Notes under the pieces: model-generated
The model's database searches: none
Told to the model about the DNA's origin: nothing
Seen by the model: the letters and a program-made list of their open reading frames with translations, nothing else
Position numbers and translations under genes: made by a program
DNA from: Hexactinellida sp. DTS-2022
Taxonomy: Eukaryota > Porifera > Hexactinellida
Reading direction: 5' to 3'
Length of the DNA stretch: 64,000 nucleotides
Assembly: GCA_028753945.1 (NCBI GenBank)
Contig: JAPNXP010000001.1
Location: forward strand, 17,350,501-17,414,500
In this document: piece after piece, positions 5,440 through 38,200 of the stretch
How positions within the stretch are numbered: position 1 is the first letter of the stretch
Layout: every line of letters starts with the position of its first letter

Positions 5440-6261
5440 CTAATTCTTTAATTTGGTTTGGATCGGAGCTGGAATGCAAGTTATTGCTGTATATGTTCTA
5501 CCACGACACACCAAACTTCCTCCTTCTGTTCTAGCTAAACAAATAAAACAAAAAGATATTTTGCATCTGATGCACTTCATTTCATTACAACCATCCTTGT
5601 GTTCTATAACAGTAAAGCAATTGGGACAAGCTCTGAAGGCTGGAACAGATATAACTATACCTTTCTGATCTTTGAAATCCTTCTTCGGAGATTTCCTTAG
5701 TTGCTCTATTTCAACTCTTTTGCAGTCCTGATTCCCACAAATCTGGTGATTACCTGGATTGCTCCACTTTCTCAGACAGTACCAACAGAAGAAATATTCC
5801 TTCTTCTGCTTCTTGGTGCAGATAGTGCAGTGTACTTGAGGATTGTCTGTTCTCTGTCGTTGACAATAGCTCTGACAACTGGGGCACTGCTGGATATCTT
5901 GACTCTCACAGAAGTTCACAGAGATGGCTGCTTCTATGAATTGTTTCTCTTCCCAGTCTGGCAGTCCAAATTTAATAATATCATCTATCTTGATAATAGC
6001 TGGACAAGAAGCGCAATTAATTTCAAACTTCAAGTGTTTGATTTGCTCCCAAGTATGAATGAGAATATCATCTGGACACATTAAATGACCACATTGCATT
6101 TTCAGTCCGCTATCGTCTCTACAGACACAACACTCGCCTTTCTTGTGTGGGAATGAGACAGTCCTTGTTTCGTCTCTGAACATGAAATATGTAGCTCCGC
6201 GCCTGACTTCACATACATCTATGCCTCGCTTCTCTAAAGCGCAGATAGAAGCTGCACACAT
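5440..6261 (-). CDS. RBR-type (RING1-IBR-RING2) E3 ubiquitin ligase
   Basis: A 273-residue single-exon protein starting at an ATG. RING1 spans about C44-C86, IBR about C126-C180, RING2 about C212-C241. RING2 contains the pattern ACPNCFTVIEHKDGCNEMKC, placing the thioester-forming cysteine of RBR ligases at C225, so it is predicted to be catalytically competent. RBR ligases take ubiquitin from an E2 onto this cysteine before passing it to a substrate. In RING1 the sixth zinc ligand is Asp65 (motif CGHLMCPDD) instead of Cys. There are no ariadne, UBA or TM segments, so it is a bare RBR core. It shares the RTVSFPH lead-in and C-terminal PAPIQTKL tail with the gene at 10,254-11,081, so the two are paralogues. 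It lies just downstream of a ubiquitin-like gene on the same strand. Confidence 0.9.
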   Translation of the reverse strand: MCAASICALEKRGIDVCEVRRGATYFMFRDETRTVSFPHKKGECCVCRDDSGLKMQCGHLMCPDDILIHTWEQIKHLKFEINCASCPAIIKIDDIIKFGLPDWEEKQFIEAAISVNFCESQDIQQCPSCQSYCQRQRTDNPQVHCTICTKKQKKEYFFCWYCLRKWSNPGNHQICGNQDCKRVEIEQLRKSPKKDFKDQKGIVISVPAFRACPNCFTVIEHKDGCNEMKCIRCKISFCFICLARTEGGSLVCRGRTYTAITCIPAPIQTKLKN

Positions 6262-6837
6262 TTCCTTATTAAGAAAGTGGAGGTGAATTGAAATTGAAAT
6301 TGAAAGCGGAATATCTCATAACTAAAACACAGGGCGTAAAAGGGTGGGTAGAGAATTTTTTGGAGAAATTTTCGACAAGTTATTATGTTTTAGCTTGAGC
6401 TAAGTAGCATAATACGTGTATTAATTATAATAGCTAGTAATACGTTCAGTTGCTCACGTAAATATGTCCTTAGTTTCAGAAGATATTCTCTAATCGAAAA
6501 TATACCATTAATCTATAAAAAATATACGATATCGTAATCATTGTTATGCACTTATGCTACTTGCCTGAAATTCCATTTCAAGCCACAGTGTAGACGATTC
6601 CAAATAAAAATTATGTTAGAAATCCATAGATCTATGTTAATGTAAAAAAATATTTAGAGAGATCAGGAATTTTGAAATTTTAGACAAATCATATTGGTAT
6701 AAGTTTAAATAATAGAAATAATATAATTGGTAAACAAACATAGATAATACCGAAGCTATTCAAGATAATAAAAAATATTTAAGGGGTAATATGACATTAT
6801 TCCTTACTCACGCAGGTAGAATTCATTTTCATAGCTA
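6262..6837. other. Intergenic between Ubl1 and RBR1, no feature seen
   Basis: AT-rich spacer separating the 3' end of the ubiquitin-like gene from the RBR start codon on the same strand. It should contain the RBR promoter, but I see no convincing TATA box. Confidence 0.4.
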
Positions 6838-9660
6838 TTAATTAGTAATACCGCCAGGTAATCTAACAACTAGCATAATGTTAGAACCTCCACAGATACC
6901 ATAGTCATTGATGGTCATAGCTTTTCCATTCTTTTTAGTTTCAAGATCCTTATTGGTGAAGATGAGCCTCTGGTTCTCAACCTCAATCCCACACTTCTCA
7001 AACACCTGAGTTTTCAATTGGAGCACAGTATAAGTCTAGAAGATGTAGATGTGCTATATAGTTTTCTTTTCATGGAATGTAACAATATCAATTATGAGAA
7101 TATCTGTAATGATATTCTATACAAGTAAAACATAATCCAATTTGAGCTCGTTCCAGTTAAAATTTGGACTGATTAATGAGTGTCTCCCTTTTTGTGACAC
7201 GAAACAAAATTGCTAAACTTGAGGAGAGCTTAAATAATAGTGAACACTCAAAAGTCCACCAAAATCTTAGGGGGTGTAAGAGTGCTGATATAATAATAAT
7301 TTGAAAATTTCATTGGCATTTATTAAATTTTAAGAAATTTAATTCCAAATTAGTGCTGAGTATTAATAGTGTACATTTTTCACAGATTTAATCGAGTATA
7401 GGATGGTAAGACTTTTTAATATGTATAGTCATCATTATAATTTCTTACTTCACTTCACAATAATATCAATAATACGTATAACCAAGGTTGCACAGAAAAG
7501 TTATATTCGGTTGACCTATACGTGTATCATTTCGGTTCAGTATTGGTTGGAGCGGTCCTTTAAATTTAATAATGCTTCGTATGTAGCATGTACCTCAATT
7601 AAATATGTACTGTTCTTCATGACTTGTGATTGAAAACAGAATTTATTAAGGCAAATACTACTTGGATTAAAAATAAGTATTACTTAGTAATAATTTTGTT
7701 GGTTAGTTAACATAATTTAGAATGAATATATCTATACTAGTAAACTCGATTGTCGTGTGTTTGTTTCATCTTTGTCCGTATTTCATCAAAGTGATTGGGA
7801 AATATAACCGCATTTATAATTGAGATAGAGACTAAATTATAGCGTACATTATATAAAAACAAGTTTATTGAACACTAATTTCGCATTTACAATTTTATAA
7901 TATGAATATTTATTGTTGTTTACAAAAGTAGGTAAACAAAAAATTACTGAAAATTCAAAATGAACCTAGAGAGGGAACGCTGCATTAGGTCGAATTCTGA
8001 TGTTGTCGATAGATCGAAAATAGCATGTTGTCGATAGATCGAATTTACTTTAGCTATGTTGTCGATAAATCGAATTTATTTTATGGGCTTCCTTTGGTAT
8101 ACCAAAAGGAAGCCCATAAATAAATTCGATCTATCGACAACATAGCTAAAGTAAATTCGATCTATCGACAACATAACTAAAGTAAATTCGATCTATCGAC
8201 AACATGCTATTTTCGATCTATCGACAACATCAGAATTCGACCTAATGCATGCGCCCCCCTAGAGACTAACTTCCATTGACCTCGGTAGGAAATAAAGTGA
8301 TCGCTACGTACCATTGAATATTGATCTGGAATAGTATCTTACATTTAAAACTATACATACAGTCACGAGGACATTAAGAGGATAGAGATAATCCCCCTAA
8401 TATAGCAAACCGAGAACAAAAAAAAAACCCTCACAGACGGGATGGGAGTGTGCTCCTTTTGATTGCACTTCCCGATTTAACTAGAATTTCAATATTCAAA
8501 TTACATTTCATTTTAGTGTAATATAAATTAATCAATGTTTGAATTGTGAAGACTTCAAATGTTTAAATTAATTAAAGATTAATTATTACAAATAGAATTA
8601 GGAATACGTGTAGTATTTACGTTACTATTTGAATAATAGAATTCATTATTTGACATCATCAACAACTTGTAAAATGTTCTAACTTCCAAGTGTTTTCATT
8701 GCACTTGTATGAAACACATATTCACTTACAAACCAATTAATAACAGTCATTATCTAGCAGATAGTAGGTTTATGTAATACTATGTTCTATAAGCTATAGT
8801 ATTCAGTATAGAGTAATTACAATATGGAGAAGATGGCTGATTTATATAAATAATCGTTAATAAAACCTAGAGTTGGTTAACGACCTATTCATTTTAATTG
8901 ATAAATAGAAAGAACATCCTTAGGAGAATGCAACCTCTATAATTTCAATTGATAATTCGAATTATTAAAGAGTCACTGGACCAGAATACAAATTTCGATA
9001 TAACTGATGAACAAAAGCGAAATTGAGAATTCGGGCTTCGAGGTGATCATCTTCAGGGAATTCTATATCTCCTGTCCAAATTTTAAATCTCTATCACCAA
9101 TGGTTTAGTCAGGCCATCGCGTACGGCCGGCCGGCCGGAAGTCCGACAGAGATAAATTCAATACTGTGCACTTATAGTATAAAACTATAGTAGGACCCTA
9201 CTATAACGTTTTTTACTAGAAGAAGCACACTAAAAATTAAAAATAAGTCAGAAGACATTTAAGTAGTTATATTTTCATGTAGAAGCAACTTGGCTTCCCT
9301 GTAAACATTTTCCCAAAAGATGTTGAATCCAAATTATGTTTTCTCACACTAGACTTTGTATTTAAGCATCAATTAACGATAATCAAAATGTAATGCAAAG
9401 AAATTGAGAAACACATTAATCTTAATGTTCCTCTATCGAAGGTCCAAGCAAGATTATGAAAGTAACAATTAATTGAATTATGACTATTCAGATCCCCAGG
9501 CCCCATTTGCCTTTCTTTCCTAATGATATTAGGAGACTTAATTCCAAAAGATTTCAAGCTATATGACAAAGATTAAATATGATCTCACCTTCATTTGAGT
9601 CTTTGGGATATTTATACTTTTCACTTTTCCTTCAAGTCCAAGAATATATATGGTGTCCAT
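6838..9660 (-). CDS. Ubiquitin-like modifier 1, two exons, C-terminal RLPGG
   Basis: Exon 1 is 9589-9660 (24 codons, MDTIYILGLEGK...), exon 2 is 6838-7035, joined by a 2.55-kb GT-AG intron at phase 0. The 89-residue product aligns end to end with ubiquitin by eye: a first beta hairpin, a helix region, QRLIF at the position of ubiquitin QRLIF, then DYGI and LVVRLPGG at the place of ubiquitin LHLVLRLRGG. Three residues (ITN) follow the diglycine, so a protease would have to expose it, as for ubiquitin and SUMO precursors. Identity outside these blocks is low, so it is neither ubiquitin nor an obvious NEDD8/SUMO. The intron is swollen by repeats, including a foldback palindrome and an 0.8-kb element; its paralogue at 12,827-13,250 has an intron of only 139 bp. 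Confidence 0.85.
7730..7981 (+). repeat. Dispersed repeat (Helentron-like family 1) in Ubl1 intron
   Basis: Starts TAAACTCGATTGTCGTGTG and continues with an ACCGCATTTATAATTGAGA block and a GTTTACAAAAGTAGGTAAAC block. The same order occurs at 11,106-11,390 and, more diverged, 17,370-17,900. The family is defined by these three copies; class assignment is inference. Confidence 0.5.
7982..8249. repeat. Near-perfect foldback palindrome in Ubl1 intron
   Basis: The sequence reads the same on both strands around the centre GGTATACC near 8100. Each arm carries TGTTGTCGATAGATCGAA repeats about 36-38 bp apart, three on the left and four on the right, so the right arm has one extra unit. It begins GCATTAGGTCGAATTC and ends GAATTCGACCTAATGC. 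As RNA in the intron of Ubl1 it would form a long stable hairpin. Confidence 0.85.
8418..9236 (-). mobile_element. Dispersed element, copy 2, in Ubl1 intron
   Basis: Reverse-complement copy of 3215-4112, inserted in the intron of ubiquitin-like gene 1. The GGCCGGCCGGCC block is near 9125-9136. Differences are scattered substitutions and small indels, so the copies are not recent. Confidence 0.65.
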
Positions 9661-10253
9661 CTCTAATTTAGTATAATCTGATGCTGGATAATAATTAGTA
9701 AATAAACTTCCCTTTCCCTATGCCTAACTACCCGTATTACACATAGATATGTTAATTATATCATATTTAATAGCTCTTATGGTCGTATAGCAAATGATTA
9801 TTTATGTAATAAGTATATATAACCAAATACTGTGCAAAATGAGGTTCTTATATGATTGATAAAAAATATTTATTCAAAGATTATCCAGAGGATACGGGGC
9901 TGTCAAACGTTATGTATCATTTTTGGGAGATTACACGACGCCCTGCCCATTTTACGCTTTTCGACCATTTTTGTAATACAAAAAGGATGCCTGTCACACA
10001 TTTGTTACCTCCCCTCCATCTTGGACAAGTTAGGTAACTTTTGAAAGACCCATATGCGCTTACTGGAATATTGACCTTAGAAAATTCAGAACTTATTTTT
10101 GATAGTTAATGGAATTTATATTTAATCGAAATAAACGAGAGATAATAATCAATAGGTTAAGGTACACATTATCTAAGACCTAAAAATAATTGAGAGTATA
10201 ATGTACAAGTAAGATAGAATAAACGTAATACGAACTAAAGCATCAAATTGGGT
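9661..10253. other. Intergenic between RBR2 and Ubl1
   Basis: No gene supported. The stretch 9890-10,020 is relatively GC-rich and open in two frames for about 60 codons, but with no recognisable motif. Confidence 0.35.
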
Positions 10254-11081
10254 TTAACTTAACTTTGTCTGTATGGGAGCAGGAACACATTTGATTCCAG
10301 TCTGATTATAGCTCACACTCTTACAAGAGAGACTCCCATCATTTGCTTTGATTAGACAAATAAAGCAAAAATCAGTTTTGCAATTACAACATGTCATTCT
10401 GTTGCATCTAATTGTATGTTCTATTAGAGTATAACATAATTTGTTGGGACAAGCTCTCCATTTAGGAATAGAAACAGTTTTCCCATTATGATCAGTAAAA
10501 TTTTTCATAGGAGAGCTCATCAACGTTTCAACACTTTCTTCCATACATTTAGAATTGCCACAAATGTTATGATTTCCTTTATTCTTCCATTCTTCCATAC
10601 AATACCAGCAAAACATGAAATAGTTTCCTCCATTTTTCGGGCAAATAGAACAATGAATTTGAGATGTATTAGAGTTTGGTCTTGAACATAATGTGTGACA
10701 TTGTGGACATTCTTTGATATCTTGACTCTCATAGAAGTTTGTTGCTATTGCTGTTGTTAGGAACTGTTCTTCCTCAAGAGTAGGGAGGCCAAATTTAATA
10801 ATATCCTCTGTAGGAATAATATAATCACACCCTGTGCAACAAATATCATACTTCATCAGCTGAACCTGCTGCCAAGCACTGTCAAGAATGTCATCTGGAC
10901 ACATGTAATGTCCACACTTCAACTTTATCCCGCTATTATCCCCACAGGTGTTACATTCACCATTGGAATGGGGGAATGAGACAGTTCTTGTTTGGTCTCG
11001 ATATTTAACAAAGAGCATCTGATAGCGTCTAGCCTCAGTAAATAGAACATCTCTGATTTCAAAAGGAGTTTTTTCTGCCAT
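10254..11081 (-). CDS. RBR-type E3 ubiquitin ligase, paralogue 2
   Basis: A 275-residue single-exon protein starting MAEKTPFEIRD. Order RING1 (about C43-C85), IBR (about C125-C179), RING2 (about C211-C242). The predicted catalytic cysteine is C226 within EHTIRCNRMTC. RING1 again has Asp64 in the sixth ligand position (CGHYMCPDD). RING2 has two extra residues in its first knuckle (CPNKLC where the paralogue has CPNC). It shares the QTRTVSFPH lead-in and PAPIQTKL tail with the gene at 5440-6261, and the MAEK start with the IBR-less gene at 37,565. It lies between the two ubiquitin-like genes on the same strand, consistent with duplication of a Ubl-RBR pair. Confidence 0.9.
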   Translation of the reverse strand: MAEKTPFEIRDVLFTEARRYQMLFVKYRDQTRTVSFPHSNGECNTCGDNSGIKLKCGHYMCPDDILDSAWQQVQLMKYDICCTGCDYIIPTEDIIKFGLPTLEEEQFLTTAIATNFYESQDIKECPQCHTLCSRPNSNTSQIHCSICPKNGGNYFMFCWYCMEEWKNKGNHNICGNSKCMEESVETLMSSPMKNFTDHNGKTVSIPKWRACPNKLCYTLIEHTIRCNRMTCCNCKTDFCFICLIKANDGSLSCKSVSYNQTGIKCVPAPIQTKLS

Positions 11082-11105
11082 TTAGGTAATAATTTATAAT
11101 CTACA

Positions 11106-11124
11106 TATATTATAAACTCGATTG

Positions 11125-11195
<71 letters not shown>

Positions 11196-12075
11196 TTTGT
11201 CCACTTGAATTAAAGTGATCGGGGAATAGAAACCAAATTTATAATTGAGTAAACAAGTATTTTAAAGTTAATCCGAATTTGGTATGTATTAAATTAAATT
11301 ATAAATTCATCATATTAATATTTAATGATGTTGTTTACAAAAATAGGCAAACAAATTAATGAAAATTCAATATGAAACTGGAGGGTAATTTCCGCTGGGT
11401 ATTATAGGTAACCAATTATGCTGAACACGAATTTTATAATGGCTGAAACGAATATTTGATATGCAACGAAATGAATCGTTTTCTAAACGAAGGAATATTA
11501 GAATATTCGTACGTTCTGATTATTAACATTATATCAAATTCAAGATTCAAAATACAGTGGAAAATAACTTTTTGTTATTGTAGCAAATTGTTAAATCATA
11601 GTTACAAAGTGCATTAACATAAAAATAGACACTCAACAGGTAGGAATTGATATTTACGATCTATCCAACTATAAAAAATAATGTTGTTGTCCAAAAGTAG
11701 TAAACGAATATTTGTTTCAGTTTAATATTCGTTCAAACAAACATTCTTTCGAAACGAACAAATATTCGTTCAATCACTTCGAACGAATATTCGAATAATC
11801 GAATATTTGGTTTCAGCCATAAATTTCACATTTGCAGATTTTAATACGAACCTTTATTGCTGTTTATCACAAAAACAGGCAGACAGATTATTCAAAATTT
11901 CAAATGAACCTAGAGGCTACCTAGCAACGGATATTATAAGTCAACACGATACTGAATACGAATTTAAATTCTGCAGGTTTCTGATATTAACATTAGTTGT
12001 TGTGTTGCTAACGTTAAGGTAAACGGATTTTTTAATATTCAAAATGAACCTATAGACTAGCTTACAAATATATTT
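11106..12075 (+). repeat. Helentron-like family 1 repeat with (GT)n microsatellite
   Basis: Begins TATAAACTCGATTGTTGTGT and runs into a pure GT dinucleotide tract at about 11,124-11,191, then TTTGTTTGTCC and the same ACCAAATTTATAATTGAG and TGTTTACAAAAATAGGC blocks as at 7730. From 11,700 to 11,810 it carries repeated ATTCGAATATTCG-type words, and blocks of the element recur near 11,820-12,070, suggesting internal duplication. Confidence 0.5.
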
Positions 12076-12229
12076 GATAAGGTAAACAAGTTTGCTGATT
12101 ACAAATTCCTTTTTTTTTTTTCAAATTATAATATTACATACCTGCTATAGTTTGGACAAAAAATAGTGATTGTGAGTAATACCTAAAATGACTCACCCTC
12201 TAAATGTAGGTTTTTTTATTGTGTAAAAT

Positions 12230-12420
12230 TACAGTACCTATTCAAGCGTACAGGGATTCTATACAGTCTATATAATTCAATGTTTTCTCCTTTCCAAAGT
12301 GATTAATTTGATTTATGTCAACCTTAAAAAAGAAATAACATGATAGTATTTCTTTCCATGCATTCCACATTAACGACATAATGCAATGTCTTGGTTAATG
12401 TAATTCCTCTTAGTATAAGT
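12230..12420. repeat. Dispersed repeat shared with 24,770-24,930
   Basis: ACAGTCTATATAATTCAAT, AAGTGATTAATT and GATTTATGTCAA blocks occur in the same order and spacing at 24,785-24,840. Unclassified; no terminal structure could be fixed. Confidence 0.5.
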
Positions 12421-12826
12421 GTACACGGTGTTCCTAGGCAAGCAAGCGCAGCGAGTGAGAAAAACTTTTGGGGTGTCCAGGGATTAGGGCCAATGTATAG
12501 GGGAAATTGGAGCCTCGTACAGGGATATGATTCAAATAAGTTTGCAGGTATGCTAATATGAAGATTTATTTTTGTGATTTACTATTGAAAGAATTGAGAT
12601 CGCGCATCAGTCGAGACGAAGGGCTCGGTGATAAATAAACTACTAAATAAATCTGTAAGACCCCGTCCAATTGGAAACATTGGATTGACTAAATAGAATG
12701 TTCATAGACGTATAGTAATATATCAGGCTAAGTTTTGTATAACATTGTATAGAATTAAAATGAAAAAATAATTAAGTGTATTGCAAAAAATATTAATTTT
12801 GTTAGGAATACAGTAGATTATATGAA

Positions 12827-13250
12827 CTATTGATAACTAGAAATAATGCGATTACCACCTGGGAGGCGTACTACTAGAACTATGTTAGACCCAGAATGGA
12901 TACCATAATGTGAAAACGTCATCACCTGACCATTTCGAGTATCTTCTAATTCTTTGGAAGAGTAGAGTAGACGCTGTTCATGAGCATCTACACCGGTACA
13001 AGTTTTGACTTTAACTCTAAGATCCGATATTTTGAAATTCTAAGGATTTAGTTAATTTCAAGTACTAATAGGTGAATTATTTTATTCAAATAGAAAGAAT
13101 TAATGCATTTTGTAAAAATAATTCAGATTAAATATATTTACATATTGATTATTGATTAGTAAAAGAATTATCAGTTACCCCGAGTTTTATGCTCTCAATA
13201 TGAATTGTTCTTGATTTTCCTTCAAATCCCATAATGAAGATATTATCCAT
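12827..13250 (-). CDS. Ubiquitin-like modifier 2, two exons, C-terminal RLPGG
   Basis: Exon 1 is 13,179-13,250 (24 codons, MDNIFIMGFEGK...), exon 2 is 12,827-13,039; the 139-bp intron has GT-AG borders at phase 0. The 94-residue product has the ubiquitin layout: beta hairpin, helix region, EQRLLYSSKELED matching the ubiquitin QRLIFAGKQLED segment, and LVVRLPGG at the ubiquitin C-terminal LRLRGG site, followed by an eight-residue tail (NRIISSYQ) that would have to be removed. Exon 1 has exactly the same length and phase as exon 1 of the gene at 6838-9660, so the two are duplicates. Both lie next to RBR genes on the same strand. Confidence 0.87.
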
Positions 13251-13825
13251 TAATCGAAAATCTAATTCAGGAATTTGGCAAAAGCAAACATCGGAAAAAA
13301 ATCTTAACAGCACAACTATATTCAAGAAAACCAATAATTGTTAACCTGAGTTCAATGAAATAGTAACAATAGTGTTAGTAGTAGTGAAATGAGTAGAATT
13401 CATACGTAGTAAGTATTTCATCATACCTCAGTAACAGTACGTACGTGTTTTGGAAGTAAATGGGTCTATAAGATTATTGTGGTTAGGATGTTTTTCAGAT
13501 ATCAAGATCAAAAACATTATTGATACTAACAGATACTTTCAGTGATCAGCTTAATCGAACATTTTCAATGAAAGATTGCACAAGTCAGTGTAAGTTAATA
13601 AATGAGAATGTGAATATATTGAGATTGCAATAAATAAATAAATAAATTTAAGAATTACGCATATTAATTACCGTTTGCGATCGATAAGTGATAGACTAAT
13701 ACATGTCAAACACATACCTCCCAAGTTTGAGATTGTCAATGCGGGTCACCAACCCCTCACTACATAGATTCGAAGGGATGTGGACTCGTTTTGGAGATTA
13801 GTTAGGACTCTTATATACAGTGTAT
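13251..13825. other. Intergenic upstream of Ubl2, no gene seen
   Basis: AT-rich sequence that should contain the Ubl2 promoter; no clear TATA box or other site was recognised. Confidence 0.4.
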
Positions 13826-14010
13826 TATACAGCCATTTATAAATACGCTCCTAATCCTGGCCTGATGCAATTTTCATACGCCTAAATCACAAATTAATGT
13901 TACGGTATAGGAGAAGATTCCAAATTTTTTCGCTCCTAATTCAAAATTTCCAATAAATCATACTCCAAAAGGAGTGTCTCGCGCTCCTGTATAAATTCCT
14001 GCTTATATAC
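13826..14010 (+). mobile_element. Dispersed MITE-like repeat, copy 1 of 3
   Basis: The block from TACGCTCCTAATCCTGG to GTCTCGCGCTCCTG recurs at 43,035-43,200 and 62,945-63,100 with the same internal CCTAAATCACAAATTAATGT wording. The ends (TACGCTCC ... GGAGCGTCTCGCGCTCC) are partly inverted. No TSD was fixed. Confidence 0.55.
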
Positions 14011-14021
14011 TTGTTATGAGA

Positions 14022-14340
14022 TGAGGCCACGTACTAGTATGAAGACTAGACGCTCTAGCTGACCCCATCCCATAGGGATGTCATGTGTGTGGTTTCGTCC
14101 CATTCCAGGGACTCATCAGGAGGGTAACCCTCGACCACCATGCGTACTGCCGCACCTCTCGCTCCAGCCCGTGGCTCCTGCGAGTGCCGTACTTCCCATG
14201 TATCCATAGTCCTAGACTATGGTTACCAGTCGTACTGCCGGACTATCTACAGACTACTCATGTAGTGTCCCGTACTTCCACTTAGTGCCTTTCCCAAGGA
14301 CACTACTCCTGAAGGCTCTAGGTGATACTCGTCACATACT
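14022..14340 (+). repeat. SINE-like GC-rich repeat, copy 1
   Basis: Contains GAGGCCACGTACTAGTATGA, then GGTTTCGTCCCATTCC and ACTCATCAGGAGGGTAACCC. The core ACTCATCAGGAGGG occurs at five places in the window (also 15,488, inverted near 25,215, 36,618 and 61,317). GGTTTCGTCCC resembles a weak pol III B box, so a SINE is plausible but not shown. Confidence 0.5.
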
Positions 14341-15451
14341 TAAAATTAGATTGGTAAAGTCATTTTGACATATTTATGTTAGTTTCTATAGGAAAAAGAC
14401 AAGTTTTACTACCTATTTACTGAATAAGATTAACTAAAATTAACAAAAAGGGAACTATTTAGGTGTTTTAAGCGTGTTAGTCTTAATACTGATCTGATTT
14501 TAGAGAATTGTGCTCCAGAAAATTATTTTTTCCAATGCGGGTTTTTCCAGGACCTTCGCGGGTCAGCGGGTTTCGATGCTCAAATGCGGGTCACTTGGGA
14601 GCTATGCAAACAACGAGTATAAAAATGTTTCAATGCTCATCTGAAACTCTTATATAGCTAAGTTATTTGATTATATACGTCTGGTAACTTTTACTGGCTG
14701 TTTATACTACTTTGAAATGACTGTAAATTAATTACTATAGTTATAAATTAAAAAATATTCTGATTTTATGTCATTTTAACCAATATCCGTTGAGTGGCAT
14801 AAGTGTATCTGCCACTTTCCACTTGTGACACAAGTGGGAATGTGCCTGGCTGTATCTAAGGATAAAATAATCATAAGATTTGAAATTATACACTTGGAGT
14901 ATTTCGACCATGTGGAATTCAAATCAGCAATCAGAAATTTAATGTCATAATGATCAGAATTTATATATTTAACGAGCTCTTCGGTCTCGATCGCTTTGCG
15001 ACGGATCGGTACTACGCACCTCAAGTTAAGTCGCTGTTGGGTCGAGGAGGGATAAATGAATTGAAGGCAATATGTAATCCTGAGATCAAATAATTATAAA
15101 GCTCCATAGTATACATATTATGGAAGAGAAGCTTATATTTGTAATTGTGTAGGTAAACTAGATCTAAAGTCTCCAACAAATAATTTAATTAATCACGAAT
15201 AATGTACACTTCAGTTTCTGACGTTTTTTTAAGCTAATCAATTTATATCGTATAAATAATAATTTAATGAGAATATTAGTAATTTGAAAAAATAATCACA
15301 TAATATTAGAAGTTGGGATCACTAATTGAGGTAATTATAAGATCTGGCACAACTGCACACTAATTAAGACAGAGTATTGGGGAAATCAAGGTCATTTAAA
15401 ATCAAAGGGGGGTTGCAACCCCCCTGTAATAAACTCAATACTGATCTGTAG
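14341..15451. other. Intergenic, no gene seen
   Basis: AT-rich. Around 14,980-15,020 there is a short block (CTCTTCGGTCTCGATCGCT) related to the hairpin block of the 29-kb repeat. A 20-bp hairpin (GGGGGGTTGCAACCCCCC) lies at about 15,404-15,423. Confidence 0.35.
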
Positions 15452-15690
15452 ACTAGTCGACCGTACCGCTACTAGTGGGGTTTCGTTCCATTATAGGAAC
15501 TCATCAGGAGGGTAAACCTCGACCCCATAACTCCCATCACGTCTGTGGGTGGTCACGATTATTGCCACGGTGTCTCCTTAACGACCGCTCGTGCCTCCTG
15601 CCGGTATAGTAGTCCCAGACTACTGCCGGCCCCGATACTACACAAACCTAGATCCACCACTGCTGGGTCACAGTATTATACCAAGGATAT
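15452..15690 (+). repeat. SINE-like GC-rich repeat, copy 2
   Basis: Shares GGGGTTTCGTTCC and ACTCATCAGGAGGGTAAAC with the copies at 14,090 and 36,600, then continues with its own CGTCTGTGGGTGGTCACG block, which is found inverted at about 25,168-25,190 (CGTGACCACCCAGTCACGG). Confidence 0.5.
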
Positions 15691-17910: not shown

Positions 17911-17975
17911 GCGAAATATAAGCAAATAATTGTGCTGATTTCGAATGCTACATTTGAATACCCTCTAATTACGTA

Positions 17976-25059: not shown

Positions 25060-25241
25060 GTGGCGACGTCACTGTGCCAAATATATAAATAGTGTAGTAT
25101 CGCGTCCGGCGCCTAGTGGAGCTAGGTATATGCCGGCAGGAGCGCACTCGTATAGAGTGTGGCAATAAGGAAGCGTGACCACCCAGTCACGGGGTCGAGG
25201 GTCACCCTCCTGATGAGTACCTGAGATGGTACGAAACCCCA
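25060..25241 (-). repeat. SINE-like GC-rich repeat, copy 3 (inverted)
   Basis: Reads, on the minus strand, GGGTTTCGTACCATCTCAGG then ACTCATCAGGAGGGTGACCC and GTGACTGGGTGGTCACGC, matching copy 2 at 15,452. Confidence 0.5.
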
Positions 25242-25249
25242 CTAGTCAT

Positions 25250-27412: not shown

Positions 27413-27629
27413 TATATTGATTTTCTGATCAAAATTCTACATCAATTCTAATCAAAGTAAACTGTTACGTTTATAATTTAGTCTTGTTAGCAAAATTTCT
27501 ACTGAGTTACTATAGTTTCCCAAATAAAAGAATCTACTTGAAGAGTATACAAGTAAACTATGTATCTACAAGGTATCATTTCCTATAAACGAAGCTACTT
27601 AAAGAAAGCTGAAAAAGGATTTGATAAAA

Positions 27630-28970
27630 ATGTGTATTTCAAAAAGTTTAACTGAAGTTTATGTGTTCTATGTCTGTATGCTTTTAACATTCAGTTTCTT
27701 CGCAACTTCATACATACAATCATATACATCACCCATCGAAGATTCTACAATTGGAAAAGGAATTTTTACAGTAACAACGTATGCACTGTTCGTGACGGCA
27801 TCATATGTCGGAGCTACTATCAGCTGTTTGCTTGTGGGTCCAATAAGTGAGTGGTTAGGTATCAAGTCCACGATTTTACTATTCTCTCCGCTTAGCATAT
27901 TTGGTGGAGTGTTACTGATAGTGGCATATGACTCAATTAGCATGATAGTAGGACGTTTGCTGATTGGTTTATACATTGGAGTACCTGTGTCTCTAGTCCC
28001 TGTCTATATATCGGAAATAGTACCAGCTGACAAGAAGAAGTTCTATGGATCCATATTGAGTTTGGCAATTCGAGGTGGAATTCTGTTGAGTTATACTCTG
28101 GGAATATGGATAGGATACCGATGGTTGGCGTGTATCTACCTGATGATGATTGTATTCATAATTTCCAATCTGTTTTTCATACCTGAGAGCCCCAAATGGT
28201 TAAGCAATAAAGGATGGATAAATAAAGCTAATCGAGCTAGTGAATGCTTCCATGGACTGACTTACGGTGTTTGTGATCCAAATGTCACAGAATCTAGTCC
28301 AAATGAATCCATCAACTTAATTGACAACAAGATGAATTTGAGAAATGGAATCTCCCTATACTTTACATGGCCAATATTCAGACCTCTGTTGATATGTGCT
28401 AGCATACAAGTGTATAAAGTTATTTGTGGATATATGTTATTACTTTGCTATTCAGCTCATGTTCTAGAAAAGGGTTTTAATGTGAATCCCAACATTATTA
28501 TTTGCATATTCCCAATATTCCAACTGATAGGAAGCATAATATTCATTTGCATAATTCACAGAGTCAGTTGGAAGAAACTATTGTTGCTCACAACATTAGT
28601 TCAGATGATATCTCTCGGATTATTGGCACTATCATTTTACCTTTTAATTCACAAATTCCATTGTGTCCATCATGGTGTGAAGACTGTTTTATGTCAACTC
28701 TTGCAGTTCCTTCCACTACCACTTGTTGCTACTTTCGCAATGGGACACTCTATGGGTTGGGGATCAATATCCTGGTGGCTGTATGGTCAGATCCTACACA
28801 CGCACTACATTCGTGTATCAGCTAGTATTGTAACTCTGTTTACCTATATTGCAGAATGCTTCAATCAACTTATTGCTCCAATAATTGTTGAGTATTGGGG
28901 ATCTGATGTTGCATTCTTCCTTTGCTCCCTAGTTTGCCTTTCTGCTTTGCCTCTTCAGTATTATTACTGA
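27630..28970 (+). CDS. MFS sugar-transporter-like membrane protein
   Basis: A 446-residue intronless protein. The upstream in-frame TTG at 27,621 is not used as a start; ATG is at 27,630. About twelve hydrophobic segments. Family marks of the sugar porters: GRLLIGLYIGVPVSLVPVYI then SEIVP after TM4, and PESPKWL after TM6. The usual Q-QLSG-N sugar-contacting motif of TM7 is not present: the corresponding stretch reads QVYKVICGYMLLLCYSAHVL. Substrate is therefore uncertain. The GLUT C-terminal PESK/ETKG motif is also absent and the protein ends at LQYYY. It is the only clear host gene on the plus strand and is not obviously linked to its neighbours. Confidence 0.8.
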   Translation: MCISKSLTEVYVFYVCMLLTFSFFATSYIQSYTSPIEDSTIGKGIFTVTTYALFVTASYVGATISCLLVGPISEWLGIKSTILLFSPLSIFGGVLLIVAYDSISMIVGRLLIGLYIGVPVSLVPVYISEIVPADKKKFYGSILSLAIRGGILLSYTLGIWIGYRWLACIYLMMIVFIISNLFFIPESPKWLSNKGWINKANRASECFHGLTYGVCDPNVTESSPNESINLIDNKMNLRNGISLYFTWPIFRPLLICASIQVYKVICGYMLLLCYSAHVLEKGFNVNPNIIICIFPIFQLIGSIIFICIIHRVSWKKLLLLTTLVQMISLGLLALSFYLLIHKFHCVHHGVKTVLCQLLQFLPLPLVATFAMGHSMGWGSISWWLYGQILHTHYIRVSASIVTLFTYIAECFNQLIAPIIVEYWGSDVAFFLCSLVCLSALPLQYYY

Positions 28971-29156: not shown

Positions 29157-30443
29157 TATACGAGCCCTTCGGTCTCGGTCACTTCGCGACGGATCACTCT
29201 CTCACAAAGGTCGCTTCGCGACCTTTGTTCGTTCGTGTTAGGCACTACGCGATGCAATTAACGGCCGCTTCGCGGCTTTTCCCTCCTCTAAAAGGCAGTA
29301 ATATTAATAATAAATAAGTTAACCTGTGGCTAGTATATTACACACACTACTTAACGCGCGCTTAAATTCATTCTGGGTTGTGATTCGTTAATGTAATCTG
29401 TTTGGGAAATGATGTGTTATGTATGTTATTCTCATTACTTATTAGTTTTTAATTATTAGTTAATAATATATGATATTGGCTCAAAGATTCTTAATTAAGG
29501 TAGCTCATTTCAGCTCCATTAAAAGGTTAGCTTGTTAGCTCAAATAGATTGAAACCCGTGGCTGATAAATTATAGGCAATTATTTATTTCAGTATATTGC
29601 ATTGTAAAGTAATTTACTTAGCCTGGATTTAATCTCTGCATAATAATGATTTAAAGATGAGAATAAGACCGCTTCGTGGTCTTATTCTCACCATTAAACC
29701 ATTATTATGCAGAGGTTAAATCCAGGGTTGTAAAATATTTGATTTAATTGATAGTAATAATAAACATATTAATCTCATAATTAGACAGATCCTAAATCCT
29801 TGATGAATCAACTACATAATTAATTTCATAATTTCAGTATAGGTAAGAAATTACGTAATTCCATTCATTGTCTTATTAATAGGAAGCCAATATAGGTGTA
29901 ATAAATAAACAATGCATCAGAAAAGTTAACTACTCGAGTGCATTCTTGTTAACCAAACAAATTAGATCACCCACATAGTGCTAAGAATAATATGATACAT
30001 TTTAAATAATAACTTTCGTTAATCATTACTTAAATTGTTTGCAATAGAAAAAGTCGAAAATCGATTTTGCACTTTGCCATACCTGTGTTGGTACGATACA
30101 CTATTTATGGTTGATTAGTGTAGGGACTAATTAATTAACTGTGTCACAATCAGAAGAAAAAATGGGAATTCGTGAACTGCTATCAGGTGTAGAAATTTAG
30201 TGTACGTCTAATGCTTTAAATTTTCTACAAATCGGAACAAAATTGGGAAGCAAGTACAAAATATCTGTTTTTCGAAACTGTGACGTCATGATCCCGTTAT
30301 TTTGTTTCAAAAACCAATAGATCGTTGTCGCAGTACAAAATTACCCCTGTATACAAATTTTAAGCTTTCTGGGACTCGTAGTCTTTCCAATCAATTACGG
30401 ACAAACATCCCCACAAACAAACACACAACAATTCCGCTTTTAA
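29157..30443 (+). repeat. 1.29-kb repeat unit, copy A
   Basis: Starts TATACGAGCCCTTCGGTCTC. First unit of a tandem pair (period 1287 bp). Contains GC-rich mini-hairpins (GGTCGCTTCGCGACC near 29,208; GGCCGCTTCGCGGC near 29,262), a long stem-loop at 29,634-29,727, and ends ACAACAATTCCGCTTTTAAT. Helentron-like nature is inferred from the end sequence; no Rep/helicase frame is present. Confidence 0.8.
29634..29727. repeat. Long stem-loop in copy A
   Basis: GATTTAATCTCTGCATAATA pairs with the downstream TATTATGCAGAGGTTAAATC; the apex is AAGACCGCTTCGTGGTCTT. Arm length about 45 nt. Repeated at 30,912-31,005 in copy B. Confidence 0.8.
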
Positions 30444-31695
30444 TATACGAGCCCTTCGATCTCGGTCGCTTCGCGACGGATCACTCTCTCACAAAGGTCG
30501 CTTCGCGACCTTTGTTTGTTCGTGTTAGGCTCTACGCGATGCAATTAACGGCCGCTTCGCGGCCTTTCCCTCCTCTAAGACAGTAATATTAATAATAAAT
30601 AAGTTAACCTGTGGCTAGTATATTACACACACTACTTACCGCGCGCTTAAATTCATTCTGGGTTGTGATTCGTTAATGTAATCTGTTTGGGAAATGATGT
30701 GTTATGTATGTTATTCTCATTACTTCTTAGTTATTAATTATTAGTTAATAATATATGATATTGGCTCAATAATTCTTAATTAAGGTAGCTCATTTCAGCT
30801 CATTAAAAGGTTAGCTTGTTAGCTCAAATAAATTGAAACCCGTGGCTGATAAATTATACGCAATTATTTATTTCAGTATATTATATTGTAAAGTAATTTA
30901 CTTGGCTGGATATAATCTCTGCATAATAATGGTTTAAAGATGAGAATAAGACCGCTTCGCGGTCTTATTCTCACCATTAAACCATTATTATGCAGAGGTT
31001 AAATCCAGGGTTGTAAAATATTTGATTTAATTGATAGTAATAATAAACATATCAATCTCATAATTGGACAGATCCTAAATCCTTGATGAATCAACTACTT
31101 AATTAATTTCATAATTTCAGTATAGGTTAGAAATTACGTAATTCCATTCATTGTCTTATTAATAGGAAGCCAATATAGGTGTAATAAATAAACAATGCAT
31201 CAGAGAAGTTAACTACTCGAGTGCATTCTTGTTAACCAAACAAATCAGATCACCCACATAGTGCTAAGAATAATATAATACATTTTAACTAATAACTTTC
31301 ATTAATCACTCTTACTTGAATTGTTTGCAATAGAACACAATCGAAAATCGATTTTGCACTTTGCTATACCAGTGTTGGTACGATGCACTATTTATGGCTG
31401 ATTAGTGCAGGGACTAATTAATTAACTGTGTCACAAATAGAAGTAAAATGGGATTTCGTGAACTGCTATCAGGTGTAGAAATTTAGTATACGTCTAATGA
31501 TTTGAATTTTCTACAGATCGGAGCAAAATTGGGAATCTAGTACAAAATATCTGTTTTTCGCAACTGTGACGTCATAATCCAGTTATTTTGTTTCAAAAAC
31601 CAATAGATCGTTGTCACAGTACAAAATTACCCCTGTTTACAAATTTTGAGCATTCTGGGACTCGTAGTCTTTCCAATCAATTACGGACAAACATC

Positions 31696-31728
<33 letters not shown>

Positions 31729-31746
31729 CAATTCCGCTTTTAATAT
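30444..31746 (+). repeat. 1.29-kb repeat unit, copy B (tandem)
   Basis: Direct repeat of copy A with few differences. It ends in a pure (CA)n tract at about 31,698-31,726 before ACAATTCCGCTTTTAATATA. Confidence 0.8.
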
Positions 31747-31871
31747 ACAGATAGATTATTATGCTCATACATAGCCTACTACAGTCATAATGAAATTGAG
31801 ATAGTGATAATGGTGGGGACATGAGATTTTTGGCAATATTATCACTATATCCAATAAATCAGTATCTATCT

Positions 31872-33322
31872 GTATATTAAAAGCGGAATTGTTGTGTGTT
31901 TGTGTGTGTGTTAGGATGTTTGTCCAGAATTAATTGGAAAGACTACAAGTCCCAGAAAGCTGAAAATTTGTATACAGGGGTAATTTTGTACTGCGACAAC
32001 GATCTATTGGTTTTTAAACAAAATAACGGGATAATGACGTCACAGTTTCGAATAACATTATTTTGTACTAGCTTCCCAATTTTGCTCCGATTTGTGGAAA
32101 ATTCAATGCATTAGACGTACACTAAATTTCTACACCTGATAGCAGTTCACGAATTCCCATTTTTCTTCTGATTGTGACACAGTTAATTAATTAGTCCCTG
32201 CACTAATCAACCATAAATAGTGTATCGTACCAACACAGGTATAGCAAAGTGCAAGTGTGTGTTTGTCCAGAATTAATAGGAAAGACTACGAGTCCTAGAA
32301 AGCTGAAAATTGGCATGCAGGGGTAATTTTACAAGCTGACAACGATCTATTGGTTTTCTAAGCGAAATAACGGGATTATGACGTCATAAACGCACATATT
32401 TGGGACACACATACTCTTTCAGTTTTTATTCGATTCGCCCACAATTTTAGATGATAACACAACATACAATGTGACACACGTATACCGATTTATTGGAATG
32501 TCTCTAGAAATTTTTATAATTTTCGCTTTTAATCTGAGCCAGGCAATAACAAAAATGTAACCTCCAATTGCTGCATCATTGCACATATTGAAGTTTGATG
32601 ATTTAATCTTCACCTATATTGGCTTCCTATAATAAGACTATCAATGGAATTACGTAATTTCTAACCAAGGATTTCTACTAGAAATGAATTAAGGATTTAA
32701 CGATGATATTTATTATGTTAATTATTGCTATCAATTAAATTAAATAACTCACTAACCCAGCTCCTGCAAAATGAATTGTTTATGGGGAGATGTATAAACG
32801 TTTATTACTACTATCAATTGAATCAAATATTTTGCGACCCTGAATCTACCATTATAATGCAGAGATTTAATCCAGAGTTAGTCAATTACTTTGCAATACA
32901 ATTTACTGAAATAAATTAATTGCGTATAATTTTATTAATTTACCAACCACAGGTTTCAATTTATTTGAGCTAACAAGCTAACCTTTTAATATAGCTGATC
33001 GAGCTACTCTTAATTAAGAATTATTGACTTATTAATTAACTTATATAATTAATAACAAATATGTAATGAGAATAACATACATGGGATAATTTCCCAAACA
33101 AATTTCATTAACTAATCACTGCCCAGAACAATTTAGGATGCCGTTAAGTAATAGTGTGTAATTCACTAGCACAGGTTAACTCATTTATTATTTTTATGAG
33201 GAGGGAAAGGCCGCAAAGCGGCCGTTAATTGTGTAGTGCTTACACGAAGGAACAAAGGTCGCGAAGCGACCTTTGTGAGAGAGTGATCCGTCGCGAAGCG
33301 ACCGAGACCGAAGGGCTCGTAT
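31872..33322 (-). repeat. 1.29-kb repeat unit, copy C (inverted, with nested insertion)
   Basis: Begins TATATTAAAAGCGGAATTGT and ends CCGAGACCGAAGGGCTCGTA, i.e. the reverse of copies A and B. A second, older terminus-like segment (GTTTGTCCAGAATTAATAGG with GGCATGCAGGGG) is nested at about 32,254-32,610. The hairpin words are inverted (GGTCGCGAAGCGACC near 33,263). Confidence 0.75.
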
Positions 33323-34451
33323 TCATTATATCACTACATCCACTGTATTACTGCATCTAATATATGACTGTATACATTGTCAATACTTATATTCTCTTAA
33401 GTATAATCAAATTCCTTATCGAATTCAACTAGTAACGATATTTATACTGTCTAATAAGAATTATGGGGAAGGTCAAAGATCCAACATTCTTGTATAATAT
33501 GCTACAAATTGTCACAATATCCAATATTGATATCACTATAACCAATAAAATTTGTATGGGATTTGCTCGGGGACCACCTGAAGCTCTCTCAGGATAATTA
33601 TATAATCTCCTAGGCCATATAAAATAAATAACTTGTTTATTATCCCCGTCCAAAAATTTTTAACCCTCCGTCCGAATATATTTTATTCAGGGAATGAAAG
33701 GTACACGAACAGAATGAATAAACTCGATTCAATTCATTTCATATTAACGCACGTTCAGTTCGTTCACGTTCACGTTCACCTCCGAACTTCAACACCACCA
33801 GCGTTCGTTCAGTTATTTCGTTCGTTCGTTCAGTTCAGATGAGTTGGTGGTGGTTATTAGGTATGACAAGCAGGTATGAGTAGTGATCTATTTATATTTA
33901 CTTTTCTAGTGATATATTTATATTCTACGTATGGATTAATGATTGAAATTGATGGATACAATATTATATGGTAATGCGGAAACCTCCAAGTTTATCTGGG
34001 CTAGAATTCGGTGATAAATTTGGCTAGTACGTATTATAGTTCGGTGATTAATCTATGGACTGGTTCTTAACCATTTTAGGTATTCGCACTCCTTGATATT
34101 CCAAAATTAACTCTCGCACCCCTTTAATTTTAATGACTCTTAAGCTGTTACTTTTTTTCGCACCACCAAAAGTATCCCGCAAGCCTGATTAAGAGACTTG
34201 TTCTAGTCTGTGCGGATGTAACCTGGGGTATAAACAGGCTAACTCAGATTATACCCGAGTATATTTTCGGGAGCTAATCTGGACTACTACACCGGAATAA
34301 CCATGGGATAGATGGGAGTCCCTAGATTTTGGCCCATGTGAACTTTAGGGTCATCTCATCAATAATTTCTCTATGCCTTCTTACATATTTTTAATTCTTT
34401 AAGATAGTTGACGCGATATATTTGAATAGTAGAATAAAAGTAGGCAAATTT
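33323..34451. other. Intergenic, no gene seen
   Basis: AT-rich. A CGTTCA-type short tandem (GTTCGTTCACGTTCACGTTC) is at about 33,755-33,780. No gene supported. Confidence 0.4.
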
Positions 34452-35201
34452 CTAAGAAATACATGGGCACAATCTTTTAAGACAAATTAATATCCTTCGA
34501 ATTCTGGTTTGGTTGGTTGTTGATACACTTTCTATTTTCTGCGAGTCTTGTCCACTAAGTTGAATACTTTCCTTACCGTGAACATGCGTAATCTCAGGAT
34601 ATATTTTGTTTTTGTAAAGCATTTCGCCTTGATGGATGGATAGGGGATCCCGTATGCAATCATTCTCAGTAGTGTGTGTCTCAAGTATCTGTCGCATATT
34701 GAGGATGCGATTGGGGAAAAATAAAAGAAAGCTTGCACTTGTGCGATTAAACACCATACTCTCTCGTGCTAGTCTTCTCCTCTCGCTGTCACTAGTAGCA
34801 ATGCTACCAATAGTATCAGTAGTCTCATGCATAAAGTCATATACCCCACGTAGCACTGCAGTCACTGAGTAAGCCGGTTTCCATTCTTCGGGATGGAAGT
34901 CACTCAAACTGAAACAAATCCTTTCATTCACTTTGAATCTCCCATTTGGAGTTAAAAACAAGATCTTTGGAGGTCCAAACGGAAACGTAGGAGGGAATAC
35001 AAGTCTGCCATGATACACACCGAACTGGTAGGGAGTACCTTCTCTACCGTGGATAACGAAATGCCAGTCTAACATATCATCCTCATTCAGTGCTACCTCT
35101 ATACCAGGGACAGGATCAGAATCCAGAAGCTTCTTATCACGACTCAATCTTTTAGTGGCTCGAGCTAGGAAATACTGATGTATATGCTCATCATCAGTCA
35201 T
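34452..35201 (-). CDS. UBE2J2/Ubc6-like E2 ubiquitin-conjugating enzyme
   Basis: A 249-residue intronless protein. The UBC fold covers about residues 8-165. FPPTFPFGPPKILFLTPNGR and VNERICFSLSDFHPEEWKP mark the UBE2J family: the active-site cysteine is C96 in a RIC-F-S-L-S-D-F-HP context, matching RLCLSITDFHP of UBE2J2, with no HPN motif. UBE2J enzymes are ER membrane-anchored through a C-terminal TM helix and act in ERAD. Here the C-terminus has no TM helix and instead ends in a basic, Cys-rich stretch (RIRRILICLKRLCPCIS) that could be lipidated, so the location is uncertain. It lies between two RBR-type genes on the same strand and is a candidate partner for them. Confidence 0.88.
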   Translation of the reverse strand: MTDDEHIHQYFLARATKRLSRDKKLLDSDPVPGIEVALNEDDMLDWHFVIHGREGTPYQFGVYHGRLVFPPTFPFGPPKILFLTPNGRFKVNERICFSLSDFHPEEWKPAYSVTAVLRGVYDFMHETTDTIGSIATSDSERRRLARESMVFNRTSASFLLFFPNRILNMRQILETHTTENDCIRDPLSIHQGEMLYKNKIYPEITHVHGKESIQLSGQDSQKIESVSTTNQTRIRRILICLKRLCPCIS

Positions 35202-35309
35202 TCGAAAATATTCTAGAAATTGTAATCCAAGCCAAAACTGTGCATTATACTACTGCAGTATATACTAAACGTATTACGTATATTATATTATATCGCTAAA
35301 TACGCGAAT

Positions 35310-35813
35310 CAATAGCGGCGCCAGGATTTCCAGCAGGGGGGCACACTTATTTTAGAATTTTTTGATTAAGGATTATCACAACACAATTTCATGTTTACAT
35401 ACCGTAGTAATTTTAAGAGATCGGGTTATAAATCATTGTGATGAGTAGCTACCACTTGTAGATCTACGATTTGATAACTGGGCGAATTGGACAACAATGT
35501 CTTCCAAGTCTCTATCTTGGAAGTTATTTATCAAATTTAGAGATTCTATCAAATTTATAGTAATACAGGAGCTACTGCAGAGGAGGGAATTTTCAATCGT
35601 TAAGGCGGTGAATCTAAGCATGCTTAAATATTTCAAAATTTGAATAATTAATAAATCTTTAAATTTGAAAAAAGGTAAATAGATAATACAGGGAACATAA
35701 ATGGAATTCGAACACAACCTCATACAAGGCCGGCTTCGTATGAGGATGATATTCTATTGCATATCTAGGGGGGATGGATCCCCCCTGTTTCATGCCTCTG
35801 TCCCTAATTCGTC
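35310..35813 (-). pseudogene. hAT-type element relic with dimerisation-domain fragment
   Basis: The left boundary TAGCGGCGCCAGGATTT matches the TIR of the MITE at 39,654. Inside, on the minus strand (about 35,433-35,640), a frame reads LRFTALTIENSL ... DRDLEDIVVQFAQ, resembling the C-terminal hAT dimerisation block (LxxLAxLSIExxL...DxxIxxFA) of hAT/ZMYM-type transposases. The right boundary near 35,813 (CCCCCCTGTTTCATGCCTCTG) is diverged and no clear TSD was seen. Probably a decayed autonomous relative of the MITE. Confidence 0.4.
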
Positions 35814-36524
35814 GCGTCAGGCCGAGTTATATCGACGGGTACAGTCGATATCAGTCTAATGCAGTGTTCATATTATTATAAATGTATTTAACATATTGCT
35901 TTGTTATGCCATTGATAATATTTTTTAGTTATGTTTGACTTGCTGATCGGCGGTCGGCAGGAGGGCGGATAATGAAATTGGTGACCACTGACCAGTTCCA
36001 TCGTTGAAAAATACAGAGGGTCCACTTCCCATGCTCCAACATTAAAATTGAGAACATATTTGGGACAAATTTATTACAGAAGTGGGACAACAGAATATTA
36101 TCTAACTCTAATTTTCCATAAATCTTACTATCTACATAAATAGGGATATCTAAATTCAATACCAAACTACAGTAAAACGTGTCAATAATGGTCACCTGTC
36201 TACAATCCCCATATTAAAATCAACCTGTGAATAGCGGTCACCTGTACATAGCTCCTATTTTTGGCCAATACTTGGATTTGGGTTGTCGGTAATAGAACTA
36301 AACATATTCAACAGAAGACCAAACTTAAAAACTTCCACTTTGTGTCCTGGATAAATTTATAAAATCTAAAGTTGTTTTAAGCATGTCAGAAATAACCTGA
36401 CTAAAAGCAGAATTATATTCTATTATTGGAAAGCAGTTGGGAAAATGCTGGCACGGATACAACTTAATTTTTCAAATCTTTGAAATGGCTTTCTCTTTAC
36501 CAGTGGCAGCACAAATTGGATATT
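35814..36524. other. Intergenic; truncated pogo-like MITE at 36,170-36,260
   Basis: CAGTAAAACGTGTCAATAAT starts a MITE-like block with AACCTGTGAATAGCGGTCAC, the wording also found in 43,667-43,799. The right end is missing. Nothing else supported. Confidence 0.4.
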
Positions 36525-36660
36525 GTCATGAGATGAGGCCACGCACTAGTATGAGGACTAGGCGTTGTGGGCGACCTCAACTCATGGGACGTCATGTGAG
36601 TGGTTTCGTCCCATTGCAGGGACTCATCAGGAGGGTAACCCTCGACCACCAATCTCACAA
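36525..36660 (+). repeat. SINE-like GC-rich repeat, copy 4
   Basis: ATGAGATGAGGCCACGCACT, GGTTTCGTCCCATTGC and ACTCATCAGGAGGGTAACCC match copy 1 (14,022) almost exactly. The copy ends after CTCGACCACCA. Confidence 0.6.
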
Positions 36661-36710
36661 CAATATTTGAATTCAGCGCACTCGATAACTCAAATAAATA
36701 AAAATAAATA

Positions 36711-37150
36711 AAAATTACATCTCTGCCGACAGCATGTTCCTTTAAAGGCACTATAGATATATTTTGGTGGCTGTTTGATTGTTAGTGCCTCCAAATAAAT
36801 ATAATGTCGGCACAGATGTTATTTTAGATTTTTCTCTTGTCATCATAACTATAAAGGTGTTAAACCTTCTCAGGAAGGTGTTTCGGAAGGTAACAACCTT
36901 GGTGTGTTGGAAGTATCTACGGATAAAAAAATCTAAAATTACATCTGTACCGACCACGTTCCTTGGAGGCACTATCTTTTGGTGATTGTTTGTTTGATAG
37001 TGCCTCCAAAAGAACATGCTGTTGGCACAGATGTAATTTTAGATTTTTTCCGTCACGTCATCATCACTATAAAGGTGTTTAGCCATTTCAGTTTGGTGTT
37101 TCGGAAGGTAACGACCCATATTGTGTTGGAAGTTCCGTTTTAGCTTTTTA
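36711..37150. repeat. Two stem-loop M1 MITEs in a ~219-bp tandem arrangement
   Basis: Hairpins at 36,711-36,835 and 36,924-37,055, each with GGAGGCACTAT/ATAGTGCCTCC arms and ending ATTTTAGATTTTT. Each is followed by the same tail (CATCATNACTATAAAGGTGT ... GGTGTTTCGGAAGGTAACNA), so the module is duplicated with a period of about 219 bp. Confidence 0.65.
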
Positions 37151-37564
37151 TAAATGACAACCAACCCTTTTAACAAATCATGGATCGTCCCTGTCACATA
37201 ATCACTAAGTATATAGTAATAATATACCAACGCTGATCTTTTTGTCCAATACGATATAAATGCTGACTCTGATACATTGTTGGAAAAGTAATATCAACAT
37301 GTACAACTTCTTATTGAAGGTAGTTTGGCACCAGGTGATCATGGGAGTGCTAAGCACCCCCTGCACCCACAAATTTACACCACTGCAGGTGGGAATATAC
37401 TGAATGAGCAATAGGTTCAACAGTTAATGGTATATTTGGTGAGACCCTCCTCCTATGACACATACCGTTAAATGAACAAAAAATATCTTATTATATTTGC
37501 AAGAATATAATCTCTAATGAACAACATTTAAATCAAAACATACTAATTAATCCACACTCAGCTA
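37151..37564. other. Intergenic downstream of the IBR-less RING gene
   Basis: No gene or bounded repeat seen. Confidence 0.35.
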
Positions 37565-38200
37565 TCATAGAATTTGCTTGCAAGCAGCTTCACATTTAAA
37601 AGCAGTCATAGTAGTTGGACACGAGATTTCTTCAGTCCTGATCATAAGGCAGATAAAGCAGAAGCTACTCCTACAACTAGCACATGTCATCTTGTAGCAT
37701 CCAATAGTGTGCTCTACCATAGTACTACACGATGGACATGCTCGCAAGGCAGGAATCTCAAGTTTATTATTCTCAGAATCAAATATCTCTTTCAATGGAG
37801 AAGCTTGCAGGACCTGGTTAATTTGATAGGATATGTCAAGTGGGGCATTTAAACTCTCTTCGAGATTCACCAACAAAAAATTTTCCAGCCAGACTTTCTC
37901 AATTTCGGATACCTCTCCCAATTCCATTATTTTCTGAGTTGATAATTTAACCTTACATAAGGGGCAAGAAAAACTATGTTCTCCTCGGACTACCTGTTCC
38001 CATGTATAGTATATAATGCAATCAGCACACAGGAAGTGTGTGCATTGTAAAGTTCTTCCTGTCTCATCAAAGCAAATAGAACAATCTCCATCCTTCAGTA
38101 TGAGATCAGTGTGACTCTTCTTCCTGTGTTGAGAGAAATATTTTGAAGCATCATTGGGAGAATTGAAAAATAGTTCACTGCCTTGTATCTTCTCTGCCAT
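37565..38200 (-). CDS. RING1-RING2 protein lacking IBR (RBR paralogue 3)
   Basis: A 211-residue intronless protein starting MAEKIQGSELFF. RING1 is C40-C82 and keeps the usual Cys at the sixth ligand (CTHFLCADC). RING2 is about C155-C184, with ACPSCSTMVEHTIGCYKMTC placing the predicted catalytic cysteine at C168. Between them, where the paralogues at 5440 and 10,254 carry an IBR of about 55 residues with eight Cys/His ligands, there is only a Cys-free linker (about residues 83-153). The flanking helices still align (IMELGEV...EEIEKVWL-type and SPLKEIFD against SPKKDFKD). So IBR appears cleanly lost, not merely diverged. The IBR normally helps hold the E2-ubiquitin conjugate, so activity is uncertain. 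Confidence 0.85.
   Translation of the reverse strand: MAEKIQGSELFFNSPNDASKYFSQHRKKSHTDLILKDGDCSICFDETGRTLQCTHFLCADCIIYYTWEQVVRGEHSFSCPLCKVKLSTQKIMELGEVSEIEKVWLENFLLVNLEESLNAPLDISYQINQVLQASPLKEIFDSENNKLEIPALRACPSCSTMVEHTIGCYKMTCASCRSSFCFICLMIRTEEISCPTTMTAFKCEAACKQIL

Follow-up and report, generated by a model that had tools for sequence, protein, structure and literature searches.

Comparison with described ubiquitin-like systems

The ubiquitylation operon of the archaeon Caldiarchaeum subterraneum encodes a ubiquitin-like (Ubl) precursor with a nine-residue tail after the diglycine, adjoining E2 and small RING E3 genes, its own E1 and a neighbouring Rpn11 protease (PMC5654768). The glass-sponge array described here is similar in that short-tailed Ubl precursors adjoin E2 and E3 genes, but its E1 genes lie elsewhere, its E3s are RBR ligases, and the genome has introns. 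In Parkin and HOIL-1, Ubl and RBR domains form a single chain; the sponge array holds the same two domain kinds together, and its RBR model matches both folds, but Ubl and RBR are in separate frames and the Ubl has a diglycine end.

ISG15, FAT10 and NEDD8 have a ubiquitin-like fold and end in GG after trimming, as the sponge Ubls would, and the sponge has UBA6, the E1 of FAT10; the RLPGG end of the sponge Ubls differs from the ISG15, FAT10 and NEDD8 type, and none of these three is known to be gene-paired with its own ligase. Animal Ubl modifiers and ligases are usually scattered across the genome, and the adjacency of Ubl and ligase genes, in some cases with an E2, is unusual for an animal and, from the sequence, suggests a private protein-tagging system. 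Finding the enzymes that serve a new modifier is difficult; in this genome, gene order itself couples the two, and does so repeatedly. The paired genes make modifier-RBR specificity directly testable, and recent duplicates let the birth of a modifier pathway be traced.

Gene organization of the window

The window is a stretch of 64,000 nucleotides (G000:C1:17350501-17414500) in a genome of 112 Mb and 18 contigs. All six genes that a preliminary description placed between positions 5,440 and 38,200 are present on the minus strand with the same ends. In order of transcription they are an IBR-less RING1-RING2 paralogue of the RBRs (37565..38200), a UBE2J2-like E2 (34452..35201), Ubl-A, RBR-A (10254..11081; 275 aa, a single exon with an in-frame stop immediately 5' of the ATG), Ubl-B, and RBR-B (5440..6261; 273 aa, single exon). 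Each Ubl gene has two exons, the 24-residue first exon being predicted by similarity: Ubl-A is encoded at 13179..13250 (donor GGG/GTAACT) and 12827..13039, and Ubl-B at 9589..9660 (donor AAG/GTGAGA) and 6838..7035. The RLPGG motif reported as the end of both proteins is present in each but is not terminal, as NRIISSYQ (Ubl-A) or ITN (Ubl-B) precedes the stop.

Four type III hammerhead ribozymes (14087-14140, 15475-15528, 25189-25242 and 36598-36651) score above the Rfam cut-off, and a plus-strand gene of the sugar transporter family (27603-28970) lies amid the array genes. Further along, a Ulp1/PHD-like frame (47206-47796; both Pfam matches under cut-off) is probably a mobile element, since it has at least 150 dispersed matches across the genome.

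Extent and pairing of the array on contig C1

The window genes form the end of a larger array at C1:17.178-17.388 Mb, best read as tandem Ubl-RBR pairs, some then followed by a UBE2J2-like E2; the inventory rests on the stretches of array DNA that were read. RBR relatives in the array lie at C1:17.181, 17.257, 17.274, 17.289, 17.302 (broken frame), 17.323, 17.334, 17.356 and 17.361 Mb, and others outside it at 12.80, 13.38 and 13.41 Mb on the same contig, giving twelve copies when the IBR-less gene (17.388 Mb) and a degraded match on C6 are omitted. The IBR model has at least 25 matches in the genome, at least 21 loci by our own grouping, and the RBR clustering goes beyond chance because the twelve loci of this family are all on C1.

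A same-strand Ubl lies upstream of 11 of the 12 RBR copies, at 0.6-2.1 kb in nine pairs and at 4.9 and 10 kb in two broken-looking pairs. One of these joins a Ubl with its first Met replaced (C1:17307886) to the RBR with the broken frame (C1:17302210-17303027), and the other a Ubl without GG (C1:13399616) to an RBR without the RING2 catalytic Cys (C1:13410021). No upstream Ubl was found for the RBR at C1:17323349 within the stretch read to the next RBR, and a twelfth Ubl (C1:17314369) is unpaired and cut short of LPGG. The Ubl at C1:17258665 has no in-frame ATG at its expected exon 1; its RBR looks intact. Over ten pairs, a set that excludes unpaired genes and the pair with the broken frame, Ubl and RBR distance matrices agree closely (Mantel r 0.925, p 5e-5), and they still do when two recent copies are dropped (r 0.856, p 8e-4). 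Pairing and co-divergence together strongly support the earlier suggestion that a Ubl-RBR pair has been duplicated.

Tandem duplication would by itself account for the clustering, with RBRs that use ordinary ubiquitin and Ubls that serve something unrelated, and other Ubl arrays do occur away from these RBRs. Such passive duplication is distinctly unlikely, since Ubl and RBR have also stayed together at C1:12.80 and 13.38 Mb and, judged by shared contigs, in other assemblies; that both members look broken in 2 of the 11 pairs points the same way and is only suggestive.

Relatives in other assemblies

The named relatives among the protein matches listed are all from the glass sponge Oopsacas minuta, where a Ubl (LOD99_3633) and an RBR (LOD99_3634) have consecutive tags on contigs of identical size, and contig 75650 carries two Ubls and two RBRs. 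Counted by contig, with contigs told apart by printed size, a family RBR is also present on seven of the nine contigs with a family Ubl (14 Ubl proteins judged family members of 29 matches; 53 RBR proteins), and one contig of 1,739,404 bases has 12 RBR matches. Scattered relatives in related genomes would have spoken against a linked set of genes; at contig level, linkage is what is found. Clustering and pairing are real and recur in related assemblies.

Ubl genes

The window Ubls match Pfam PF00240 above cut-off, and O. minuta Ubl P0055 is predicted to have a ubiquitin (beta-grasp) fold (pLDDT 86, with a low-confidence tail), its best structural matches being ubiquitin. The Ubls have the form expected of a conjugated modifier, an own frame with a GG end and a short tail: in 10 of the 12 copies in this genome the diglycine is followed by a stop 1-8 codons on, and relatives elsewhere have GG in 13 of 14, with tails of 1-6 residues. 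O. minuta P0054 ends in LPGDT, without GG. Equivalents of ubiquitin R42, K48, I61, V70, R72, L73, G75 and G76 are invariant in the seven aligned Ubls (of eight complete and twelve in total); the R74 position is Pro in most, and Gln or Tyr in copies k and b.

The Ubls could instead be unconjugated and act in trans on their paired RBRs, as a detached Parkin or HOIL-1 Ubl, with the RBRs transferring ordinary ubiquitin. One-to-one pairing and co-divergence are as this regulator would predict, and by eye on the alignment the Ubl keeps ubiquitin's hydrophobic patch. We consider it unlikely, as a docking domain would have no use for a diglycine, yet 10 of 12 copies here and 13 of 14 elsewhere retain one, and the R72 and L73 equivalents are invariant.

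RBR ligases

RBR-A and RBR-B have RING1, IBR and RING2 in order, with the RING2 catalytic Cys (alignment of 28 and fold search), as expected of RBR ligases. In the third gene, the IBR cysteines are absent between RING1 and RING2, and no second copy of this gene was found. By eye, most copies of the alignment have Asp in place of Cys as the sixth zinc ligand of RING1. The predicted structure of RBR-A (pLDDT 88, pTM 0.85) has ARIH2, RNF216, HHARI, Parkin, HOIP and HOIL-1 as best Foldseek matches, and matches 1-49 of the 50 listed are RBR ligases; TM scores are mostly 0.2-0.35, low values that we put down to a probable difference in domain arrangement.

In recent copies, the paired genes change at different rates. 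For Ubl exon 2, dN/dS between close copies is 0.06-0.25, one pair being without any amino-acid change, and copy a is nearly unchanged relative to copies c and d (0.06-0.07); the RBRs of a, c and d and the unpaired copy are faster, at 0.38-0.61. A slow Ubl beside a fast RBR fits ligases that diversify around a single modifier, and it fits relaxed constraint too.

Two genes or one

A further reading makes Ubl and RBR exons of one Parkin-like gene, at least as a splice isoform. The pairs remain together, and O. minuta model P0008 joins Ubl and RBR in 399 aa. The second glycine is GGT, a possible phase-1 splice donor, in 10 of 10 GG-bearing copies; copies b, h and i have another phase-1 donor one codon before it (scores -0.2, 1.8 and 2.2), and phase-1 acceptors lie near the start of all ten RBRs tested. 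The GGT donors score low (-5.6 to 0.9 in nine pairs tested), in contrast to seven of ten exon-1 donors (2.3 to 7.8); the other three exon-1 donors are themselves weak (-4.5), which makes the use of weak donors possible.

The stop codons argue against fusion. In a fused gene the frame after GG would run on as intron for about 15 codons on average, but the stop comes within eight codons in all ten GG-bearing copies here and within six in the 13 relatives elsewhere. For a set of 20 sequences that includes near-duplicates, the summed tail length falls below the run-on expectation with P about 3e-7; for this genome's seven families alone, P is 0.003. Most RBRs start with MA or MCA; separate frames with stops are found in all intact pairs, and O. 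minuta has four Ubls and three of the four RBRs found as separate gene models, P0008 being the one fused model. We regard this Parkin-like reading as very unlikely.

For O. minuta, gene prediction used Braker and Augustus with mapped RNA reads, and any gene shorter than 100 aa that had null transcript coverage was discarded (PMC10280926). At 87-92 aa, the four Ubl models fall below this length and, having been retained, probably had RNA reads; such reads fit a free or a joined message alike, and a joined message would equally give this coverage.

E2 and E1 genes

The window E2 has a UBC domain and, by eye, the catalytic-Cys motif, and its best solved-structure match is UBE2J2 (E 5.4e-47). Array copies differ from UBE2J2 as extra paralogues, and by eye no membrane anchor is seen at the end of the window copy; copy C1:17332523, in contrast, has a hydrophobic stretch at its end. 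The canonical UBE2J2 is likely the copy at C11:13114061, and we take the gene at C1:4.65 Mb to be UBE2J1-like. Three of the four array E2 relatives (C1:17255709, C1:17332523 and the window copy) sit on the same strand 3' of an RBR-family gene, by about 1.0, 1.2 and 2.4 kb; the fourth, C1:17200118, has no RBR match nearby. An E2 follows only 3 of 13 RBR-family genes. UBA1 and UBA6 are encoded in the genome, and the E1 model PF10585 has matches on C13 and C15 only and none in the array, so the cluster lacks the E1 of a prokaryote-type operon.

Proposed modifier pathway

The best reading, though not a proven one, and one that we hold with middling confidence, is a lineage-specific modifier with its own linked E2 and RBR. 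At gene level, each Ubl is encoded as a short-tailed precursor. A protease would cut this precursor back to RLPGG, and charging would fall to UBA1 or UBA6. The modifier would then move to the UBE2J2-like E2 and on to the RING2 cysteine of the paired RBR, which would transfer it to substrates. Pairs would duplicate as units, each ligase thereby retaining its matching modifier. That the parts may act jointly as a modifier with its own ligases, as the preliminary description proposed from domains, order and strand, is compatible with the retention of the diglycine, of the ubiquitin contact residues and of the catalytic cysteines; the role in stress or immunity that it raised would be speculative. 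Counted against the modifier reading are the mostly Pro residue at R74, the unpaired RBR (C1:17323349), the ATG-less Ubl (C1:17258665), the few RBR-family genes with an E2 after them, an array without an E1 match, neighbour gaps of 0.6-2.4 kb, and the weak GGT donor in all ten GG-bearing copies.

A broader form of this modifier pathway, which we think doubtful, is a multi-channel private Ubl code of glass sponges, in which operon-like cassettes of modifier, RBR and sometimes E2 are ligase-matched and possibly expressed from trans-spliced shared transcripts. The glass sponge A. vastus adds a leader of about 37 bp by trans-splicing, and 4% of its long reads were predicted to carry one (PMC10282587). 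Shared transcripts for the array genes are speculation, and the gaps between neighbours are long for one shared transcript.

Other repeated frames

A second array (G000:C12:5929336-5941187; L016, L017, L020, L022, L025, L064 and L065) has single-exon Ubl frames, several of which join a Ubl with an LPGG or similar end to about 150 residues with cysteine pairs. At G000:C4:5700690-5707246, frames of 382-881 aa contain many tandem ubiquitin-family repeats. Within the window, a proline-rich repeat frame of 756 codons lies on the minus strand (56041-58311), and the opposite strand also has long open frames.
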